A stretch of 64,000 bases of DNA, from positions 620,001 through 684,000 of the forward strand of contig NC_087388.1 of the NCBI RefSeq assembly GCF_963675165.1. Reading direction: 5' to 3'. The stretch comes from Halichondria panicea. Taxonomy: Eukaryota > Porifera > Demospongiae > Suberitida > Halichondriidae. The notes under the pieces were generated by a model. The model had not been told where the DNA came from. It saw nothing but the letters and a program-made list of their open reading frames with translations, and searched no databases. The translations under genes and the position numbers were made by a program. Position 1 is the stretch's first letter. Every line of letters begins with the position of its first letter. Below, one piece after another: positions 4,627 through 29,557 of the stretch.

Positions 4627-6043
4627 ATGGTTTCCATGTGGTGTCTCAGAGTGAAGTCAATCCGTCGTCGTCCGATGACTCTCCTCGGGGCAGCTGCTGC
4701 TACCAGTTTCTTCGTTGGCGTTGCTCTATTCAAATCATGGACTCCAGGTGACTACTAGACTCCCACCACACCTACAGACGTACATGTAGACCCTTATAAA
4801 ATTGTTCGTATTAACATTTATTTATTTATTTATTTTCTGTACAGCTCATGTGCAGTGTGTAGCCTCTTGTGCTTCAGTGGGTGTGTATCAGATACTGCAA
4901 AAGAACGAAGCTTCCAAGAAATTGAAAAACCACCGAGTGAAAAGATTTGACGTAAACTTTCTTGGTTCCAACTCACCAATTGAAGATCGATTTGTGGTCG
5001 GTGCTAGTAATAACCTAGGAGCTACTCTCTTCTCAGTAATTGACGGTCACAAAGGAACCCATTGCTCACACTACCTCCAACACCACATGTTACAACACGT
5101 ATCTACGGCTCTACACAAAACAGGAGATGTTAAAGATAAAGACGACTTGAGAATTATACTGAATATGAACAGTACACCTTTTGTCGTTAACTCACAAGCT
5201 GAAGTCGAGCTCCAACCCAAAGACGGTTTCGATGGAAATCTAATTAAAGGATGTTTACAGAAATCTTTAAGTTTATTGGATGATTCGTTTTGCAATGCAG
5301 CTCTTGAAGACATTAAACTCATCCAAAAAGGACACTCCCTATCTCCTGACATGAAACAGCGTGTAATGACGGCCATTGAGGGGGCGTGTGCTATCACAGC
5401 TGTCGTGAGAAAAGACGACATTTTCGTCGCTAATACGGGAGATTGTAGAGTAGTGATTGGGCGAGAAACGGCCGGTAAAACTTGGACAGCTGTTCCACTT
5501 TCAGACGACCAAAATGCTCAGAACAAAGCTGAAGTGAAGCGGCTCCAAGACGCACATCCGGGGGAGACGGTGATAATTGAGAATCGTGTTCTGGGCAGTT
5601 TAATGCCTTTCAGAACATTTGGCGATGCTGACTTCAAGTGGGAGAAAAAATACTTGCAAGGTTTGATGACCACCTGGATAAACTACGAGACGCCACCGTA
5701 CGTAACAGCTGAGCCTGTGGTCACCCACTGTAAAATCGAAGAGAGTGATCGTTTCCTGATAATTGGATCGGATGGTTTGTGGGAAAGAGTGTCTAACGAA
5801 GAAGCTGTAAACGTTGTTGCAAGGACTCAGGGGGAAAAGAAGTTTTCAAAGAAACGGTCGTTTTTTGGTTCGATATTTGGAGAGTCAAGGGACGATGAGT
5901 GTTGCCGTGACAATGCCGCTACTCAGCTATTGTGGCATGTGTTAGGAGGTAGTGATACTGAAGTGTCTCAGCTACTCAATGTAGACCCGAGGGTTAGCCG
6001 AATGTATCGTGATGACATCACTATTATTGTTGTGTACTTCTAA
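4627..6043 (+). CDS. PDP: Pyruvate dehydrogenase phosphatase catalytic subunit (PP2C family, mitochondrial)
   Basis: Two exons, 4627-4747 and 4845-6043, join in frame (G|CT). The protein is about 439 residues. PDP removes phosphate from the E1-alpha subunit of the pyruvate dehydrogenase complex in the mitochondrial matrix and so reactivates it. The first exon gives an Arg-rich, Ala-rich N-terminus followed by a hydrophobic stretch, as expected for a mitochondrial presequence; ATG 4627 is chosen because it supplies this and keeps the phase. PP2C metal-binding motifs are intact: SNSPIEDRF, VIDGHKG, VANTGDCR, IGSDGLWE and MYRDDITIIVV. PDP-specific segments (LMPFRTFGDADFKW, TPPYVTAEPVVT) set it apart from other PP2Cs. 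It is divergent from CEP72 and 231 bp upstream of the TEFM-like gene. Confidence 0.93.
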
Positions 6044-6274: not shown

Positions 6275-8194
6275 ATGAATTTAGTAAAAACGATGAACAA
6301 TATCAAAGGAGTAGTCCATCTGTTGAATATCGAGTCTCGACAAGTGTTACTAAGTAAACCTGGTATAGGACCAAAGAGAGTCGAGAAGATCCTTACCCTG
6401 AGGAGCGATTGCATGAAAGATGGCGGATCAATGAGTCTAAGAGATGCAATGGATGCGAAGGCGATCACTCCTAGTCTATTGGCAAAGCTAACGGGAGATG
6501 AAAATGCACCATTTGTGATCAAATACGTAGAACTGTATTGCCAGAGCTTCCATGATGTCTGTCAGGTTGGTAGATCTAGTAACAAATGTTGATCAAGGAC
6601 CAAGTACCGTTAATGCTTGCACGGTTACGTATTGCTAAATGCCACAGTGGATTTACCGTCTATAATTACTATATATAGTGCTCCTATACTGAGGTAGTCC
6701 GTACCTAGTGTTCTCCTAGTGTTTCCATACAGGCACCTAATAGTGACAGGGCTGCATGAGGTATACCTAGTGTTCTCCTAGTGTTTCCATACAGGCACCT
6801 AATAGTGACAGGGCTGCATGAGGTATACCTAGTGTTCTCCTAGTGTTTCCATACAGGCACCTAATAGTGACAGGGCTGCATGAGGTATACCTAGTGTTCT
6901 CCTAGTGTTTCCATACAGGAACCTAATAGTGACAGGGCTGCATGAGGTATACCTAGTGTTCTCCTAGTGTTTCCATACAGGAACCTAATAGTGACAGGGC
7001 TGCATGAGGTATACCTAGTGTTCTCCTAATAAATTATTCAATAGTGCTTCCATACATGTACAGGGTTAGGGAGGGGGTTAGGTACTAGAATATTTTGCAA
7101 ATGTGATTAAAAATAAAATCACAAAAACCTAAACTGGTACTGCATGCATGGTATGACACAAGATCCCTGTCAGAACGCAATAGTTAGATCACAAAGGGTC
7201 ACTCATTCGCAAATGTTTTTCACACCCAACATATTCTAGTAATACGGTATAATGTATACTGCAGTCCAAGAAAAAGCAGGGAAATTATTTTGGGAGCCAG
7301 TAAATCATGTGAGAAGAAGAGAAGTACCACACAATTTTGTGTTGACCCATCTACAGTACGTAAGCCAGAACAAAAGTCAACACTAAAATACCAATATTAT
7401 TACACAGGTACATTTACAATGTTATAGCCAGCCTCTCACCTGCCCATGCAATCCAAGTTGAGGGTTACTCACCTGTAACCACAGTTTAAGCTTGCACAAC
7501 CACTGTTGCAAAGATTCTGCAAAACCCTGTATAGTGTTTCCTTACATGCAGATACCTAGTAATCTCCTATCTCTGGATCTGGGCATACACAATGCTGCAT
7601 ACGTTCTCATGGATACTGACTACACTGTACGAGAGTGGAAAAGACTGGACCTGGGCATGCCCTCTCCTTATAATCCAGAGGAATGCTTCAGAAAGGTCAG
7701 CTTTCAGCGGCAGTTTTGCATGCAATAAAGATTCAAAAATATTTTTTTTGCAGGTGAAAGAATCCCTGGGGCAGTTTCCACCAGCTGATCTGTATGTGAT
7801 AGAGGAACAAAGTCACAGAAACCCATCTAATCGAGGTTTTCTAAACATCAGTGTGCAACTGAGAGTCTTAGAGGCCATGGTTTTGGCAGTATCCAAGCTC
7901 ACAAGCTTGTCCCCAGTCCATTCTCTGTCTCCAAACCGTGTCTCACGATACTTTGGTACCAACGGGAAAAGTGGGGCTGCTGCCAAGAAGAAGATGTCTA
8001 TCGAGTTTGCTACCAAAATGATTGAAACTCTCAATCCAATGAAGACCCCTCTTGGAAATACAATAAAAGTGCCACAGGATTTAGTCAAATATTTTGAAAA
8101 GGAGAAAAAGAAGGACGACCTCAGCGATTGTTTACTCCAGGCTGCAGCTGTTGTTGATTGGTGTAAAATGACACAAAAACTTAACTATAATTAG
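6275..8194 (+). CDS. TEFM: TEFM-like mitochondrial protein: helix-hairpin-helix plus RuvC/Ydc2-like domain
   Basis: Three exons, 6275-6565, 7552-7695 and 7754-8194, join in phase 0 and give 291 residues. An in-frame stop just upstream supports ATG 6275, although a distal 5' exon with a clearer presequence is possible. Residues ~15-50 hold a ComEA-type helix-hairpin-helix (SKPGIGPKRVEKIL). Residues ~100-285 form an RNase H/RuvC-like domain whose order matches human TEFM (ADLYVIEEQ; LRVLEAMVLAV; SPNRVSRYFG; SDCLLQAAAVV). TEFM stimulates the mitochondrial RNA polymerase, and its human RuvC-like domain is a catalytically dead relative of yeast Cce1/Ydc2 resolvases. Here the usual acidic positions look intact: D ~106 (SLDLG), E ~162 (VIEE), and D ~266/267 and ~270 (KKDDLSDCLLQ). 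It could therefore be an active resolvase rather than, or as well as, an elongation factor. Intron 1 holds a 62-bp minisatellite. Confidence 0.8.
6700..7030. repeat. 62-bp minisatellite, about 5 copies
   Basis: A 62-bp unit containing 'cctagtgttctcctagtg' and 'gtgacagggctgcatgaggt' is repeated about five times with near identity inside intron 1 of the TEFM-like gene. The low divergence implies recent expansion or homogenisation. Confidence 0.92.
7079..7249. mobile_element. Diverged inverted-repeat element of the TACCGTATTACTAG family
   Basis: It shares 'cagaacgcaatagttagatc', 'acaaagggtca' and the right end 'attctagtaatacggta' with the fuller copies at 34508-34711 and 56614-56832. The left terminus is degraded. 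It lies in intron 1 of the TEFM-like gene. Confidence 0.65.
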
Positions 8195-8815: not shown

Positions 8816-9898
8816 CTAAATGTGTTTGTATGGATGTACACATCCTGCAGTATGGGGTAACACACAAGCATTAGAGTAGCCACTTTGTCTATCTTTGTAC
8901 CCGCCTGATCTCCACTCCTGCATTAAACTGTTTTCTCTGAACTCTTCTATTGGAACTATTTTCTCAATGTCTTTTGTTATTAAATCAATGATCTCCCTCG
9001 TTTCAAAGTGCCTTGGATAGGATCTGTGTTGAGTGTTCCGAGTGATGAATTCCACAGGGAACACCATTTGATTGTGGTAGGCCATGTCACCCATTAAACA
9101 GATATACCACTGAGAGAACCACCAACTAGTGTTATCAAACCGATTCCAATGATGCAAAACAGGTTCCAAAACAGTCTCAGCAGCTTTGTGGTGGAAGGCA
9201 TTAATCATACCGTCAAAAAAGACGGCTGTAACATACTCTTCCATAGGCTCTTGGAAACAACCATTTCTGATTTTGAATCGAATTGTCCGGTCGACTGATC
9301 GCCATTCTTCAGTATCGATTGCCGCTATTGGAGGCCGCAAACGAAACAAAAAATCTTCAAATGATCTCCAAGGATTTTTGTTATGATCTTGTACATCGTT
9401 ATACAGCTCTATTTTAGCATCATCATCCATGAAAATGTAATACATGTACTTTTTATCTCCTTGCACTGTGGTATTGTACAGTATCCCTCTGCCGGTAGTC
9501 CAGGTGGTAGATGGATGAAAGATATGGGTAACGTGGGAACTGTACGTACTGGCGGTGGTGCATCTCTCCTTGTATCCTAGCACCAGCAAGTCACACTGAC
9601 AATCTAAAGAGTTGCCAAATATATCAATTGATAATAAATCTTCAGGAACACAGCTTTCAGTCATGATCATGTAGAGAAATTTCTTGTGGAAATCAACACC
9701 ACTGTCTAAATTGCAATCTGTAGCTTTGTGTCTGGCGATATTGGACCTTGAGTAATGAGGGATTAGCTCCACTGGCAACACAAATAACTTGTCTAGGAGG
9801 CAGTAATGTCGTAGTATATACAATACTAGTATTATATCCACCATTAGAGCAGCAACAAAACAGCAGGAAGTTCTTATTTTAGGGACGAATAGCTTCAT
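8816..9898 (-). CDS. Type II membrane protein with DDD motif, family copy 1 (putative glycosyltransferase-like)
   Basis: One uninterrupted ORF of 360 residues. There is a short basic N-terminus, one transmembrane segment at about residues 12-33 (CFVAALMVDIILVLYILRHY), and a Cys-containing lumenal or extracellular domain. The segment YYIFMDDDAKIELY resembles the metal-binding DXD motif on a beta strand in GT-A glycosyltransferases. A type II topology and ~350-residue length also suit a Golgi enzyme. Other family-conserved features are PWRSFEDFLFRLRPPIAA, NRFDNTSWWFSQWYICLMGD and a C-terminal Cys/His-rich tail (GCVHPYKHI). I do not recognise a named family, so function is inferred only from topology and the DDD motif. 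Four relatives occur in this window (11657, 14718, 24938, 28245). Confidence 0.8.
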   Translation of the reverse strand: MKLFVPKIRTSCCFVAALMVDIILVLYILRHYCLLDKLFVLPVELIPHYSRSNIARHKATDCNLDSGVDFHKKFLYMIMTESCVPEDLLSIDIFGNSLDCQCDLLVLGYKERCTTASTYSSHVTHIFHPSTTWTTGRGILYNTTVQGDKKYMYYIFMDDDAKIELYNDVQDHNKNPWRSFEDFLFRLRPPIAAIDTEEWRSVDRTIRFKIRNGCFQEPMEEYVTAVFFDGMINAFHHKAAETVLEPVLHHWNRFDNTSWWFSQWYICLMGDMAYHNQMVFPVEFITRNTQHRSYPRHFETREIIDLITKDIEKIVPIEEFRENSLMQEWRSGGYKDRQSGYSNACVLPHTAGCVHPYKHI

Positions 9899-11656
9899 TC
9901 TTGAGAACGACTTTTCTCAGATGCCTCACCTAAAAAAATGTTATTATTATATAGGCCAATTAAATTTCGTATGCATGTGTGCATTATTGCGCAGAGCACA
10001 ATAATGCGGCCTAGATTCGAAGTGACCAGTACACATTGTACAATGTACACACTTTACATGTACAGATAAATATGCTCCTCTTCCATAACACTTTATAGCA
10101 TATTGAGCAAAAAAATTTTAGCACCCCTCCTGTCAAGAGAGACAGAGCGATACCGGCTGCCTTAGTGATGGCCCACTCTACCCAACTGAATTCTCCTGTG
10201 ACCATACCCTCAATACCGTCAATGCAGTCAGAGATTCCTTCTCCAATGAGGAACATTCCGAACTGTGACGCAACCATATGTTGCATTAGCACACTTATAT
10301 TACTTGATAGAACCGATACTTGTACGATATTAATTAGGTATGGTAAGCTAAGAATCAATGCTTTGGGACCACCAGAATGCCTTGGATTGCTTATATACAA
10401 TCAGGATTGGAATCATGTAAAGAGGAGATGAGAAAATTGGGCATTGAATGGTTAAGTCAATAGTTTGGGTCGAATAAATCATGCTCCCACTTGGACACTG
10501 CGTTCTCCTGGCCCCGCTGGCCGCAGGATGAATCTCTACAGCTAGGAGAGAAAATAACATTTTCAATAGCCACATGTACTATCGATAGCTAATTATAGAG
10601 ACTAGCTGCATGTTCTTGTCTTTCTCAGTTGTTCTCCATTACTATGACTGAAAGCTGTGAAGAATACTATTGTCACTTTGATCAGATGTATTTGGCAGAC
10701 AGTGCATGGGGTGCATGATTATGCTTGGGTTCTCATTTCGAGGTTACGCTGTACCTCATGCTGCCTCTCTAAAGTCTTCCCCATTGTTGTAGCTAGCAAT
10801 GGGAAATTGAAGAGAGGCAACTTCATGACTCACACCGCCACACCTCCATGCACCCTGTGATGACACTTGATACTAAGCTTGATACTATAAGCGAAACCAG
10901 GAGCCCATAATTGAGAGCTCCTGGCGAAACTCATAAGTGTAGAGTCTACTACTCAGTACTGGGTGATTGATACACCATTCTCCATGAGTTCATAATTATT
11001 GGAGCTGTTCTCTAAGTCATCAGTTTATAATTCATATAATTTATAATCATAATTATTATCTCTGGCACACATATTAAAAATACAAAATTAATAAAATAGT
11101 TTCAATGAAAGCACCGCAGGTGCTGATGCCTCGGTGGAGATGTCAAAGCTACATAACATAAAGCTGCTACTAATAGCTTTTATGCAAAACAATTAAATTT
11201 TGCTGCATTGCAAAAACTCAGCGAGTGGGTAATGATCGACCATGATTGTTGTTAAAACGATCGATGCCAAAAGTTCAAGTCTAAAATTAATAGCTGCCAT
11301 CAGCAGAGCCTTGCAGCTCTCTTCTCACTCTTGCAGCTACCAATAGCTAGCGTTCTAGTGCAGAGCTAACTACTAAGTAGAGTAGCAACACTCGGTAAAC
11401 AAGTTTGGCTACGTGCTCTTCTAAAAAGGCTGCAATGGCATTCCAAGTAAGCAAAACTAGGCATAACTCGAGAATGAAACATTATTTTGCAAATCCACTA
11501 ATTAAAATCCAAGTAAACATGACTAGAAGCCTATAGAAACTCTTACTTGCACTTGATTCATCCTTGAGCAGCTGTAGCAGTCTACACAGACACACTACCG
11601 TATACCTCGCTTGCGCATGCGCACCGAGGCATAATTAATTACGTTTGAATGCAAAA
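9899..11656. other. Spacer between DDD copies 1 and 2; first ~1.2 kb is a duplicated block
   Basis: About 9955-11100 is repeated with high identity at 13560-14700, and part of it (about 10390-10540) recurs at 16310-16470. The remainder, 11100-11640, is unique within the window, and I see no gene in it. Confidence 0.8.
10060..10400 (-). pseudogene. Orphan coding fragment with an EGISDCIDGIEGM motif
   Basis: An open frame reads through FLIGEGISDCIDGIEGM, GEFSWVEWAITKAAGIALSL and LLTGG. The segment reminds me of a recurrent hydrophobic stretch in large uncharacterised animal proteins, but that is memory and not a match. The duplicate at 13690-13960 carries a 5-bp insertion and a 2-bp deletion that break the frame, so the coding meaning is probably lost. 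It could instead be an unrecognised exon. Confidence 0.35.
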
Positions 11657-12766
11657 CTAAATATGCTTATATGGATGTACACATCCTGGAGTATGTGGTG
11701 ACATACAAGCAGCAGCAGCATTAAAATAGCCACTTTTTCTACCATTGTGCTGGACTGACCTCCTAGACCTCCACTCCAGTATTAAATTGTTTTCACTGAA
11801 TTCTATTGGAACTATTTTCTCAATGTCTTGTGCTATTAAATACATGATATCTTTCGTTTCAAACTGCTTTGGATAGGATCTGTGTTGAGTGTTCCGAGTG
11901 ATGAATTCCACAGGGAACACCATTTGATTGTGGTAGGCCATGTCACCCATTAAACAGATATACCACTGAGAGAACCACCAACTAGTGTTATCAAACCGAT
12001 TCCAATGATGCAAAACAGGTTCCAAAACAGTCTCAGCAGCTTTGTGGTGGAAGGCATTAATCAAACCGTCAAAAAAGAAGGCTGTAACATACTCTTCCAT
12101 AGGCTCTTGGAAACAACCATTTCTGATTTCGAATCGAATTGTCCGGTCGACTGATCGCCATTCTTCAGTATCGATTGCCGCTATTGGAGGCCGCAAACGA
12201 AACAAAAAATCTTCAAACGTCCTCCAAGGATTTCTGTTCTGATCTTGAACATCGTTGTATAGCTCTATTTTAGCATCATCATCCATGAAAATGTAATACA
12301 TGTACTTCTTATCTCCTTGCACTGTGGTATTGTATAGCATCCCTCTGCCAGTAGTCCAGGTGGTAGATGGATGAAAGATATGGGTAACATGGGAACTGTA
12401 CGTACTGGAGGTGTTGCATCTCTCCTTGTATCCTAGCACCAGCAAGTCACACTGACAATCTAAAGAGTTGCCAAATATATCAATTGATAATAAATCTTCA
12501 GGAACACAGCTTTCAGTCATGATCATGTAGAGAAATTTCTTGTGGAAATCAACACCACTGTCTAAATTGCAATCTGTAGCTTTGTGTTTGGCGATATTGG
12601 ACCTTGAGTAATGAGGGATTAGCTCCACTGGCAGCACAAATAACTTGTCTAGGAGGCAGTAATGTCGTAGTGTATACAATACTAGTATTATATCCACCAT
12701 TAGAGCAGCAACGAAACAGCAGGAAGATCTTATTTTAGGGACAAATAGCTTCATTCTTGAGAACAA
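11657..12766 (-). CDS. Type II membrane protein with DDD motif, family copy 2
   Basis: Intact single-exon ORF of 369 residues with the same plan as copy 1: one N-terminal membrane anchor, FMDDDAKIELY, WWFSQWYICLMGD and the C-terminal GCVHPYKHI. It differs mainly near the C-terminus, where it has a longer Ser/Ala-containing tail (NAAAACMSPHTPGCVHP) shared with copy 3, and in the FFFDGLINAFHHK segment, where copies 1, 4 and 5 have VFFDGMINAFHHK or HHR. The frame starts at MFSRMKLF; the internal MKLF is the start used by copy 1. An inverted-repeat element (12813-13554) lies just upstream of its 5' end. Confidence 0.8.
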   Translation of the reverse strand: MFSRMKLFVPKIRSSCCFVAALMVDIILVLYTLRHYCLLDKLFVLPVELIPHYSRSNIAKHKATDCNLDSGVDFHKKFLYMIMTESCVPEDLLSIDIFGNSLDCQCDLLVLGYKERCNTSSTYSSHVTHIFHPSTTWTTGRGMLYNTTVQGDKKYMYYIFMDDDAKIELYNDVQDQNRNPWRTFEDFLFRLRPPIAAIDTEEWRSVDRTIRFEIRNGCFQEPMEEYVTAFFFDGLINAFHHKAAETVLEPVLHHWNRFDNTSWWFSQWYICLMGDMAYHNQMVFPVEFITRNTQHRSYPKQFETKDIMYLIAQDIEKIVPIEFSENNLILEWRSRRSVQHNGRKSGYFNAAAACMSPHTPGCVHPYKHI

Positions 12767-12812
12767 CGGCTAATCACTTTTCTCAGATGTGCCTCACCTA
12801 AAAAAATGTTAT

Positions 12813-14717: not shown

Positions 14718-15871
14718 CTAAATATGCTTATATGGATGTACACATCCTGGAGTATGTGGTGACATACAAGCAGCAGCAGCATTAAAATAGCCACTTTTTC
14801 TACCATTGTGCTGGACTGACCTCCTAGACCTCCACTCCAGTATTAAATTGTTTTCACTGAATTCTATTGGAACTATTTTCTCAATGTCTTGTGCTATTAA
14901 ATACATGATATCTTTCGTTTCAAACTGCTTTGGATAGGATCTGTGTTGAGTGTTCCGAGTGATGAATTCCACAGGGAACACCATTTGATTGTGGTAGGCC
15001 ATGTCACCCATTAAACAGATATACCACTGAGAGAACCACCAACTAGTGTTATCAAACCGATTCCAATGATGCAAAACAGGTTCCAAAACAGTCTCAGCAG
15101 CTTTGTGGTGGAAGGCATTAATCAAACCGTCAAAAAAGAAGGCTGTAACATACTCTTCCATAGGCTCTTGGAAACAACCATTTCTGATTTCAAATCGAAT
15201 TGTCCGGTCGACTGATCGCCATTCTTCAGTATCGATTGCCGCTATTGGAGGCCGCAAACGAAACAAAAAATCTTCAAACGTCCTCCAAGGATTTCTGTTC
15301 TGATCTTGAACATCGTTGTATAGCTCTATTTTAGCATCATCATCCATGAAAATGTAATACATGTACTTCTTATCTCCTTGCACTGTGGTATTGTATAGCA
15401 TCCCTCTGCCAGTAGTCTAGTCCAGGTGGTAGATGGATGAAAGATATGGGTAACATGGGAACTGTACGTACTGGAGGTGGTGCATCTCTCCTTGTATCCT
15501 AGCACCAGCAAGTCACACTGACAATCTAAAGAGTTGCCAAATATATCAATTGATAATAAATCTTCAGGAACACAGCTTTCAGTCATGATCATGTAGAGAA
15601 ATTTCTTGTGGAAATCAACACCACTGTCTAAATTGCAATCTGTAGCTTTGTGTCTGGCGATATTAGACCTTGAGTAATGGGGGATTAGCTCCACTGGCAG
15701 CAAAAATAACTTGTCCAGGATGCAGTAATGTCGTAGTGTATACAATACTAGTATTGTAGCCACCATTAGAGCAGCAACAAAACAGCAGGAAGATCTCATT
15801 CTGTGGGCTAGCTTCATTCTTGATAATGGGTTGATTCTTCTAAGACCCCACGAAATGTACTGTGTTAGCAT
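14718..15871 (-). pseudogene. Type II membrane DDD-family copy 3, frameshifted
   Basis: Nearly identical to copy 2 over most of its length but broken by a tandem duplication of TAGTC (15413-15417 and 15418-15422). That shifts the frame between the N-terminal part (15871 to about 15410) and the rest (to 14718). The break falls just before the DDD motif, so the truncated product would keep only the anchor and ~110 further native residues. The N-terminus differs from the other copies (MLTQYISWGLRRINPLSRMK). No other damage is obvious, so inactivation looks recent. Confidence 0.85.
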
Positions 15872-16566
15872 TCCTACAAGGATCCATTACTTCTATTGCA
15901 GAGATATAGCAGGCCAGTGTTTCAAAATATACACTCACTCGATCAACAACAGAGTGCATGTACAGGTCTGGTAAGGGGCAGAGTTTTTGCGGAAGTACCT
16001 GTCACGCGATATTCTTGGCTTCCCAGAATATCACGTGACAGGCGGCGAGTTGCCTCAAAATCAGGGCGGCCTCTGCGTTGCCAGTCCACTTTCTTTCCAA
16101 GACGATTCCTTACCAAATCATGCCTCTGGCCGTTTCAGAACATTCTAGAAAACATGCCTAAAAAACAAAACAAAACATGCATTTAGCACCATGTATATAC
16201 GTTGCTTGAATACACCCTTGATAGCTTTAAGAATCGATGCTTTGGGACGAATAATATAAATGCAGAGTAGCTTTAATACACAACCATAATGTTGCAAAAC
16301 ATGGATTACAATCAGGATGGGAATCATGTAAAGAGGTTAAAACAAGCAATTAGTGAGAAATGAGAATTGAGTATTGAATGATTCTGAGTCAATAGTTTGG
16401 GTTGAATAAATCGTGCTCCCATCTGGACACTGCGTCCTCCCGGCTTTGCTGGCCGCGGGATGAACCTCTACAGCAGAAAAATGACAGTAGTAAAAAATTT
16501 CCTGGCACACAGTGAATCAACTATGGCAGCACACATTATAATAATCAACTATAGATGGCTAATAAC
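15872..16566. other. Upstream flank of copy 3; diverged third duplicate block
   Basis: No gene is seen. About 16240-16470 is a diverged relative of 10390-10540 and 13980-14130 ('gaatcatgtaaagagg', 'ggacactgcg', 'ctggccgcgggatgaa'). The stretch 16000-16050 contains a short inverted pair around 'cacgcgatattcttggctt / agaatatcacgtgac'. Confidence 0.6.
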
Positions 16567-24937: not shown

Positions 24938-26002
24938 CTAAATGTGTTTGTATGGATGTACACATCCTGCAGTATGGGGTAACACACAAGCATTAGAGTA
25001 GCCACTTTGTCTATCTTTGTACCCGCCTGATCTCCACTCCTGCATTAAATTGTTTTCTCTGAACTCTTCTATTGGAACTATTTTCTCAATGTCTTGTGTT
25101 ATTAAATCAATGATCTCCCTCGTTTCAAAGTGCCTTGGATAGGATCTGTGTTGAGTGTTCCGAGTGATGAATTCCACAGGGAACACCATTTGATTGTGGT
25201 AGGCCATGTCACCCATTAAACAGATATACCACTGAGAGAACCACCAACTAGCATTATCAAACCGATTCCAATGATGCAAAACAGGTTCCATAACAGTCTC
25301 AGCAGCTCTGTGGTGGAAGGCATTAATCATACCGTCAAAAAAGACGGCTGTAACATACTCTTCCATAGGCTCTTGGAAACAACCATTTCTGATTTTGAAT
25401 CGAATTGTCCGGTCGACTGATCGCCATTCTTCAGTATCGATTGCCGCTATTGGAGGCCGCAAACGAAACAAAAAATCTTCAAATGATCTCCAAGGATTTT
25501 TGTTATGATCTTGTACATCGTTATACAGCTTTATTTTAGCATCATCATCCATGAAAATGTAATACATGTACTTTTTATCTCCTTGCACTGTGGTATTGTA
25601 CAGTATCCCTCTGCCAGTAGTCCAGGTGGTAGATGGATGAAAGATATGGGTAACATGGGAACTGTACGTACTGGCGGTGGTGCATCTCTCCTTGTATCCT
25701 AGCACCAGCAAGTCACACTGACAATCTAAAGAGTTGCCAAATATATCAATTGATAATAAATCTTCAGGAACACAGCTTTCGGTCATGATCATGTAGAGAA
25801 ATTTCTTGTGGAAATCAACACCACTGTCTAAATTGCAATCTGTAGCTCTGTGTCTGGCGATATTGGACCTTGAGTAATGGGGAATTAGCTCCACTGGCAG
25901 CACAAATAACTTGTCTAGGATGCAGTAATGTCGTAGTGTATACAATACTAGTATTGTATCCACCAATAAAGCAGCAACAACATAGCTCATTTTGAGCTTC
26001 AT
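24938..26002 (-). CDS. Type II membrane protein with DDD motif, family copy 4
   Basis: Intact single-exon ORF of 354 residues. The anchor is slightly altered (SYVVAALLVDTILVLYTLRHY) after a shortened N-terminus (MKLKM). FMDDDAKIKLY, WWFSQWYICLMGD and GCVHPYKHI are kept. It differs from copy 1 at few positions (for example HHRAAETVMEP for HHKAAETVLEP). It lies directly upstream of FEN1 in the same orientation, and this junction was duplicated together with part of FEN1 to create the 28-kb copy. Confidence 0.8.
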   Translation of the reverse strand: MKLKMSYVVAALLVDTILVLYTLRHYCILDKLFVLPVELIPHYSRSNIARHRATDCNLDSGVDFHKKFLYMIMTESCVPEDLLSIDIFGNSLDCQCDLLVLGYKERCTTASTYSSHVTHIFHPSTTWTTGRGILYNTTVQGDKKYMYYIFMDDDAKIKLYNDVQDHNKNPWRSFEDFLFRLRPPIAAIDTEEWRSVDRTIRFKIRNGCFQEPMEEYVTAVFFDGMINAFHHRAAETVMEPVLHHWNRFDNASWWFSQWYICLMGDMAYHNQMVFPVEFITRNTQHRSYPRHFETREIIDLITQDIEKIVPIEEFRENNLMQEWRSGGYKDRQSGYSNACVLPHTAGCVHPYKHI

Positions 26003-26574
26003 TCTTGAGAATAGCTAAAATCGCCTCTCTTTGTTTCAATCCAGCAGATACCCCCACTTATTCGCTTAACACTTTCTGTGTGCGCATGTGTACTCAATTG
26101 TTGAGTTTTTTTTTTTTTTTTCTTTTTTTTTTTTTGCCTTTATGGCGAAACGAGTAGGTAAGGTAAGTACAAACGGGTAGACAGATATAAATCGAAATCT
26201 AAGTAAGGTAAAGATATGAAGAACAAACATATAGTAAGTTTAGGTATGCCCATCAAGCACAGGTGATAGAGTTGGTGACCTGTGAATGAGCATGGAAGCA
26301 TTCCCTCGCCAAAGTACGCATGCGCACACAGAAAGCCGACCGAGATATGGACACAACTACATGTAAACACCTCTTCGGCAGAGTCAGCTTGGCTTAGTGG
26401 CGGGGCAATGCGTCTATGCATGCTGATTCACAGAGCCCCCACTCTGCCTCCTGCTCTAGATGGACTCACTTAGTCATACTTTTATCTATTAATAAAATTT
26501 ATTTTAATTTATTCTGCCCCCACTTTGCCCTGACTCACTTTGTCATCACAAAGTGTTAGCGAATAAGGGGAAGC
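26003..26574. other. Non-coding spacer upstream of DDD copy 4
   Basis: It contains a T-rich run at 26105-26134 and low-complexity 'taaggtaag' words. I see no gene. 'tggcttagtgg' at 26390 looks like a tRNA A box, but no convincing B box follows. Confidence 0.4.
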
Positions 26575-28244: not shown

Positions 28245-29318
28245 CTAAATGTGTTTGTATGGATGTACACATCCTGCAGTATGGGGTAACACACAAGCAT
28301 TAGAGTAGCCACTTTGTCTATCTTTGTACCGGCCTGACCTCCACTCCTGCATTAAATTGTTTCCTCTGAACTCTTCTATTGGAACTATTTTCTCAATGTC
28401 TTGTGTTATTAAATCAATGATCTCCCTCGTTTCAAACTTCCTTGGATAGGATCTGTGTTGAGTGTTCCGAGTGATGAATTCCACAGGGAACACCATTTGA
28501 TTGTGGTAGGCCATGTCACCCATTAAACAGATATACCATTGAGAGAACCACCAACTAGCATTATCAAACCGATTCCAATGATGCAAAACAGGTTCCAAAA
28601 CAGTCTCAGCAGCTTTGTGGTGGAAGGCATTAATCATACCGTCAAAAAAGACGGCTGTAACATACTCCTCCATAGGCTCTTGGAAACAACCATTTCTGAT
28701 TTTGAATCGAATTGTCCGGTCGACTGATCGCCATTCTTCAGTATCGATTGCCGCTATTGGAGGCCGCAAACGAAACAAAAAATCTTCAAATGATCTCCAA
28801 GGATTTTTGTTATGATCTTGTACATCGTTATACAGCTTTATTTTAGCATCATCATCCATGAAAATGTAATACATGTACTTCTTATCTCCTTGCACTGTGG
28901 TATTGTATAGCATCCCTCTGCCAGTAGTCCAGGTGGTAGATGGATGAAAGATATGGGTAACGTGGGAACTGTACGTACTGGAGGTGTTGCATCTCTCCTT
29001 GTATCCTAGCACCAGCAAGTCACACTGACAATCTAAAGAGTTGCCAAATACATCAATTGATAATAAATCTTCAGATACACAGCTTTCAGTCATGATCATG
29101 TAGAGAAATTTCTTGTGGAAATCAACACCACTGTCTAAATTGCAATCTGTAGCTTTGTGTTTGGCGATATTAGACCTTGAGTAATGAGGGATTAGCTCCA
29201 CTGGCAACACAAATAACTTGTCTAGGAGGCAGTAATGTCGTAGTATATACAATACTAGTATTATATCCACCATTAGAGCAGCAACAAAACAGCAGAAAGT
29301 TCTCATTCTGAGCTTCAT
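28245..29318 (-). CDS. Type II membrane protein with DDD motif, family copy 5
   Basis: Intact single-exon ORF of 357 residues. The anchor is CFVAALMVDIILVLYILRHY; FMDDDAKIKLY, WWFSQWYICLMGD and GCVHPYKHI are kept. It appears mosaic: the N-terminal part resembles copies 1 and 2 (ARHK/AKHK region, RCNTSS as in copy 2), while the C-terminal part matches copies 1 and 4, which suggests gene conversion. It sits between the orphan FEN1 exon and the homeobox gene promoter. Confidence 0.8.
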   Translation of the reverse strand: MKLRMRTFCCFVAALMVDIILVLYILRHYCLLDKLFVLPVELIPHYSRSNIAKHKATDCNLDSGVDFHKKFLYMIMTESCVSEDLLSIDVFGNSLDCQCDLLVLGYKERCNTSSTYSSHVTHIFHPSTTWTTGRGMLYNTTVQGDKKYMYYIFMDDDAKIKLYNDVQDHNKNPWRSFEDFLFRLRPPIAAIDTEEWRSVDRTIRFKIRNGCFQEPMEEYVTAVFFDGMINAFHHKAAETVLEPVLHHWNRFDNASWWFSQWYICLMGDMAYHNQMVFPVEFITRNTQHRSYPRKFETREIIDLITQDIEKIVPIEEFRGNNLMQEWRSGRYKDRQSGYSNACVLPHTAGCVHPYKHI

Positions 29319-29557
29319 TCTTGAGAATAGCTAGAATCACCTCTCTTTGCTCCTATTCGCAAACACTTTCTGTGTGCGCATGCGTACTCAACGGTAGACA
29401 AAGGTGGGCGTTGTAGCTTCCTGGTTGTTAGTGAGGGAGGAGCTCATTATCCTGCAGCTATACTGGTACAAGTACATTCGTCTGTCGTTTTTGTGTTATT
29501 TATGTTCTGCAACTAGATCTACAAGATCTCATTCAGCTCTCATAAAGTTTCAATGCG

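Follow-up and report, generated by a model that had tools for sequence, protein, structure and literature searches.

The window analysed here is a stretch of 64,000 nucleotides from the sponge Halichondria panicea (NCBI RefSeq assembly GCF_963675165.1, contig NC_087388.1, positions 620,001 to 684,000 of the forward strand), and coordinates refer to this window unless a genome contig is given. At 6275-8194 on the forward strand lies a gene whose product resembles the mitochondrial transcription elongation factor TEFM and is termed the TEFM-like protein below. Three exons can be joined in frame, from an ATG at 6275 to a stop codon at 8192-8194, to encode 291 amino acids with no internal stop; both introns (2/2) are of the GT-AG type and both junctions (2/2) are in phase 0. 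The initial annotation was right both in the coordinates of the gene and in the placing of the acids D106, E162, D266, D267 and D270 (Table 1). An alternative first exon upstream of the ATG was considered and rejected, as there is an in-frame stop before 6257 and no AG from this stop to the ATG; a different first exon may however be joined via a splice acceptor deeper in exon 1. Intron 1 holds a tandem repeat (6702-7028) with a 62-base unit present in 5.3 copies at 99% matches.

The gene is preceded on the same strand by that of a PP2C phosphatase (4790-6043), which ends approximately 230 bases upstream and has as its best solved relative the mitochondrial pyruvate dehydrogenase phosphatase 1 (E 9.2e-46). 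The two are probably adjoining genes for mitochondrial proteins.

Table 1. Features of the TEFM-like gene in the window. Ala, change in PF09159 score on substitution by alanine; human TEFM residues are those of the HMMER alignment, fowlpox resolvase residues those of the weak match described in the text.
Feature	Coordinates	Strand	Remarks
Exon 1	6275..6565	+	Residues 1-97, possible helix-hairpin-helix region; ATG-opened frame, GT donor after 6565, phase 0
HhH-like motif LLSKPGIGPKRVEKIL	6344..6391	+	Residues 24-39; fits by eye
Exon 2	7552..7695	+	Residues 98-145, start of RNase H domain; AG precedes 7552 and GT follows 7695, phase 0
D106, proposed first catalytic Asp (SLDLG)	7576..7578	+	Ala -6.2 bits; fowlpox D7; human TEFM V
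N111, proposed pocket Asn	7591..7593	+	Ala -5.2 bits; fowlpox N12; human TEFM R
Exon 3	7754..8194	+	Residues 146-291 and stop; AG precedes 7754, phase 0; ends with the stop TAG
E162, proposed catalytic Glu (VIEE)	7802..7804	+	Ala -6.3 bits; fowlpox E60; human TEFM E
Q164, proposed pocket Gln	7808..7810	+	Ala -5.5 bits; fowlpox Q62; human TEFM T
R167, Arg after catalytic Glu	7817..7819	+	Ala -5.3 bits; human TEFM L
D266/D267/D270 (KKDDLSD), proposed third and fourth catalytic acids	8114..8128	+	Ala -3.9/-4.6/-5.0 bits; human TEFM E/E/D

When the whole TEFM-like protein was compared with Pfam, one domain was matched, PF09159 (mitochondrial resolvase Ydc2 / RNA splicing MRS1; Ydc2-catalyt), with 47.3 bits and an E value of 2.7e-12 (cut-off 23) from residue 103 onwards, and no other domain was detected at E 1 or better. 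A phmmer search of the PDB with the whole protein returned five sequences at E 10 or better, the top four of which are TEFM (best E 1.9e-5, residues 100-279), while the fifth is the unrelated DabA (E 0.31). TEFM is therefore the closest solved structure by sequence, which supports the initial annotation on this point. Ydc2 and Cce1 are absent from the PDB matches at E 10, so the link to these two enzymes comes through the Pfam profile. No family was found in PHROGs or NCBIfam at E 1, and no relatives were confirmed in viral contigs (queried with exon 3 and with a two-row alignment) or, for the domain, in prokaryote genome contigs, both being collections that are not meant for animal genomes.

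Residues 98-291 score 49.8 bits on PF09159. For a fair comparison with human TEFM, which had been cut to the aligned stretch, the TEFM-like protein was trimmed to residues 100-279, and over this same stretch it scores 43.3 bits against 14.9 bits for human TEFM, which is below the cut-off. Judged by these scores, the protein resembles TEFM in pairwise comparison, and on the profile it resembles a resolvase. The profile evidence should be read with the knowledge that the family takes in Mrs1, which does not cut, and that it is partly circular if the seed holds invertebrate TEFM relatives.

The initial annotation had proposed a helix-hairpin-helix (HhH) followed by an RNase H/RuvC fold. The second part of this is borne out by the match of the RuvC-type domain to TEFM, and the first is a fit by eye to a motif that scores 12.6 bits on Pfam HHH and 13.1 bits on HHH_5, both below the respective cut-offs of 24 and 27. 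This possible HhH stretch precedes the RuvC-type domain, in the order described for TEFM. When residues 1-97 were used to query the PDB, TEFM was not recovered, and the best match was a family-X DNA polymerase at E 2.1. Residues 1-19 have no acid, the first 18 residues have a net charge of +2 and the best helical moment is 0.40, so by charge and helical moment no clear presequence is seen at the N-terminus.

An alanine scan was performed in silico on residues 98-291, in which all 21 Asp and Glu residues were replaced singly and the sequence rescored on PF09159 from its starting value of 49.8 bits. The motifs SLDLG, VIEE and KKDDLSD place the candidate acids at D106, at E162 and E163, and at D266, D267 and D270, respectively. 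In addition to the losses given in Table 1, replacement of E185 cost 6.2 bits and that of D157 2.3 bits, and for the 14 other acids of the domain, including E163, the score changed by 0.6 bits or less. Six further residues near the pocket were also replaced; besides N111, Q164 and R167 (Table 1), K264 lost 3.7 bits, H110 lost 1.3 bits and K265 none. Altogether nine of the 12 residues tested in or beside the pocket contribute strongly to the score on the resolvase profile, and all five proposed catalytic acids are among them. As these five make up all but one of the six strongly scoring acids out of 21, and given the E value of 2.7e-12, the PF09159 match is not considered to be due to chance.

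The sixth of these acids, E185, is taken as a structural residue since it sits in the motif EAM, which human TEFM also keeps. E163 was ruled out as the catalytic Glu, as its replacement shifts the score by +0.1. The claim that acids stand at the expected places is supported, in that D106, E162, D266, D267 and D270 are rewarded by the Ydc2/Mrs1 profile; E163 earns nothing. When checked by sequence, the acids were found within the active-site motifs and not outside them, and their presence in the TEFM-like protein is a confirmed observation. Single-sequence AlphaFold2 gave a mean pLDDT of 46.7 for the whole protein and 45.7 for residues 98-291, both too poor for use, and the model of residues 98-291 has a helix in place of the expected first strands; with these models unusable, the clustering of the acids is argued from homology.

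Human TEFM (PDB 5OLA, 5OL8, 8U8U, 9MNA) has the RuvC-type RNase H domain in common with the TEFM-like protein, and 42 of 177 aligned residues are identical (23.7%). Both proteins contain TVxxW, PxADxYVxE, EAMxxA and DxLLQAxA. They differ at D106, N111, Q164, R167, K264, D266 and D267, where in the HMMER alignment human TEFM has the residues given in Table 1 and, at 264, R. The V at position 106 agrees with the earlier remark that the first Asp is missing in human TEFM. The human Glu is placed under E163 by MAFFT and under E162 by HMMER, and the latter placement is preferred on the basis of the alanine scan and the fowlpox alignment described below. Human TEFM is identical at two of the nine pocket positions (106, 111, 162, 164, 167, 264, 266, 267 and 270), which were picked for their profile score or fowlpox counterpart and not blindly, their neighbours E163, H110 and K265 being without such a score; among 13 compared positions three are identical (162, 185 and 270). 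Comparison of 2/9 in the pocket with 42/177 across the domain suggests that the human TEFM pocket has drifted like the rest of the domain. When the human-type residues at 106, 111, 163, 164, 266 and 267 were combined in the TEFM-like protein, its PF09159 score fell from 49.8 to 31.5 bits (-18.3). The core of human TEFM has been called a pseudonuclease (PMC9950373). Such a degenerate nuclease site, which is a property of human TEFM and not part of its definition, was not seen in the TEFM-like protein, in which D106, E162, D266, D267 and D270 are all present.

The fungal mitochondrial resolvases Ydc2 and Cce1 are described as junction resolvases (PMC7078210), and the TEFM-like protein scores above the cut-off of their family, PF09159, with its acids at the rewarded positions. 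Yeast Mrs1 is named in the same Pfam family, and is reported to be a splicing cofactor in which DNA cleavage was lost and binding kept (PMC2813881). In a phmmer search of the PDB the poxvirus A22-type resolvase of fowlpox (PDB 6P7B) was matched at E 0.22 by the N-terminal part of the domain and at E 0.51 by a longer query, and was not listed with the whole protein. As a homology claim this match is graded as chance level, because the unrelated DabA reaches E 0.31. The weak alignment nevertheless pairs D106, N111, E162 and Q164 with fowlpox residues of the same kind (Table 1), and a 67-residue piece of the fowlpox protein itself matches PF09159 at E 1.2e-4 and 22.3 bits (cut-off 23). The metal site of the fowlpox enzyme is reported to consist of D7, E60, D132 and D135, and its N12A, Q62A and K129A mutants to have greatly reduced junction cleavage (PMC6962361). 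Its last acid pair, D132/D135, compares with either D266/D270 or D267/D270 in the TEFM-like protein, the first of which has the spacing of D145/D149 in phage bIL67 RuvC. Each subunit of MOC1 and of phage bIL67 RuvC is described as holding the active-site Mg2+ by means of four acids, and RuvC, Ydc2 and MOC1 are reported to be homodimeric (PMC7078210, PMC3864405).

The whole genome was searched as a 131 Mb assembly of 39 contigs. As befits an animal, it yields Wnt matches in three regions (10 at exon level, on contigs 3, 6 and 12), Wnt genes not being known outside animals, and 26 matches to the model of the fibrillar-collagen domain. Exon 3, PF09159 and the human TEFM domain, when used as queries, each found a single locus, which is the TEFM-like gene itself; the one match to PF09159 that was detected lies in its exon 3 and scores 31.3 bits. 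The TEFM-like gene is thus the single detected copy, where it should be noted that the human domain query reaches an E value of only 0.082 even at this locus, so that a second gene, if divergent, could have escaped detection. PF02075, the RuvC family, had no match in the genome at E 1. The poxvirus A22 resolvase family gave one short match (locus L014, G000:C4:4958340-4958537, minus strand; 25.1 bits, E 0.0014), which has five stops in its frame and may be a decayed piece or chance. Matches to a POLRMT-type polymerase (PF00940) were found on contig 10 (loci L006-L013, G000:C10:1508441-1520198, minus strand), where the same part of the profile is covered twice, by profile positions 157-325 at 1509.9 kb and by 157-274 and 275-324 at 1514.6-1515.3 kb; this gene may thus have been duplicated in tandem.

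On the similarities in sequence described above, we lean towards reading the gene as a homologue, most likely an orthologue, of animal TEFM that would still encode a working RuvC/Cce1-type nuclease. What we infer in this reading extends to the activity, dimerisation, substrate, mitochondrial location, orthology and direction of evolution of the protein. Since the acids and the N, Q, R and K beside them are in place, the simplest reading would be that branched DNA is its substrate for cutting. The relationship to TEFM would point it to the mitochondrion, and the HhH-like region may add DNA binding. According to published descriptions, human TEFM dimerises with itself into a sliding clamp whose core is a pseudonuclease (PMC9950373, PMC11001877), and such a clamp could be the remnant of an enzyme of this kind after loss of its metal site. 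In vertebrate TEFM, then, the metal site would have been lost and the dimeric clamp retained. A published suggestion that the recombination from which double Holliday junctions arise may be absent from mammalian mitochondria (PMC8455175) counts against this reading. The interpretation offered in the initial annotation, that of a still active mitochondrial resolvase and elongation factor or of a resolvase from which TEFM lost activity, is partly supported.

The principal alternative is that the TEFM-like protein is an elongation factor only, whose pocket is a structural or a metal- or nucleic-acid-binding relic that cuts no DNA. This would fit with TEFM being the closest solved structure and with the HhH-like then RuvC-type order described for it, and the account of Mrs1 shows that a member of the family can bind without cutting (PMC2813881). 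A relic would be expected to drift, and yet nine of the 12 residues tested in or beside the pocket are strongly rewarded despite the identity to human TEFM of just 42 in 177 residues, which makes this explanation unlikely. Conversely, the protein could be an active resolvase and not the TEFM orthologue, that is, an animal Cce1/Ydc2 that is kin to TEFM via an older duplication and unconnected with transcription. The Ydc2 profile score of 43.3 bits, which is far above the 14.9 bits of human TEFM for the same residues, is in favour of this. Against it, the human domain query finds one locus in the genome, which is a weak test given its E value there; we regard this explanation as rather improbable.

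The protein could also be an active nuclease whose substrate is not the Holliday junction but, for instance, R-loops, forks or the RNA of the polymerase during transcription. The fowlpox resolvase is reported to bind and cut many branched DNAs (PMC6962361) and unprocessed transcripts are reported to build up in Tefm knockout mice (PMC9950373), both of which are in keeping with this; the description of Ydc2 and Cce1, in the matched family, as junction resolvases (PMC7078210) is against it, and we consider it very unlikely.

The preferred reading of a TEFM homologue that is still a nuclease may be taken further, to a bifunctional Holliday-junction resolvase of animal mitochondria that clamps the mitochondrial RNA polymerase and also resolves mtDNA junctions or stalled forks. 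In this scheme elongation would have arisen by recruitment of a recombination enzyme, and cutting would have been lost towards the vertebrates. We put this forward tentatively and think it somewhat doubtful.

By an account of 2015, no animal mtDNA resolvase had been identified, and a search of the C. elegans genome by its authors was without success (PMC4334201); in mammals, the mitochondrial resolvase is described as still missing in a source from 2022 (PMC9127837). The TEFM-like protein, in which the resolvase residues are present, is a specific and testable candidate for a mitochondrial resolvase in an animal, and if the reading is true, the vertebrate elongation factor TEFM would descend from a nuclease. 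Among the matches listed in a search of literature titles and abstracts there was none on a catalytically intact TEFM, which is no proof of novelty.

Downstream of the TEFM-like gene, open frames are found on the minus strand at five places (8816-9916, 11660-12769, 14721-15886, which has two frames, 24941-26014 and 28248-29330). The one copy that was tested, 8819-9916, had no Pfam match at E 0.01. The five places resemble copies of one gene, as judged for most of them on the first 60 residues, and have stretches in common such as LRHYC.LDKL or YMYYIFMDDDAKIELYNDVQD.
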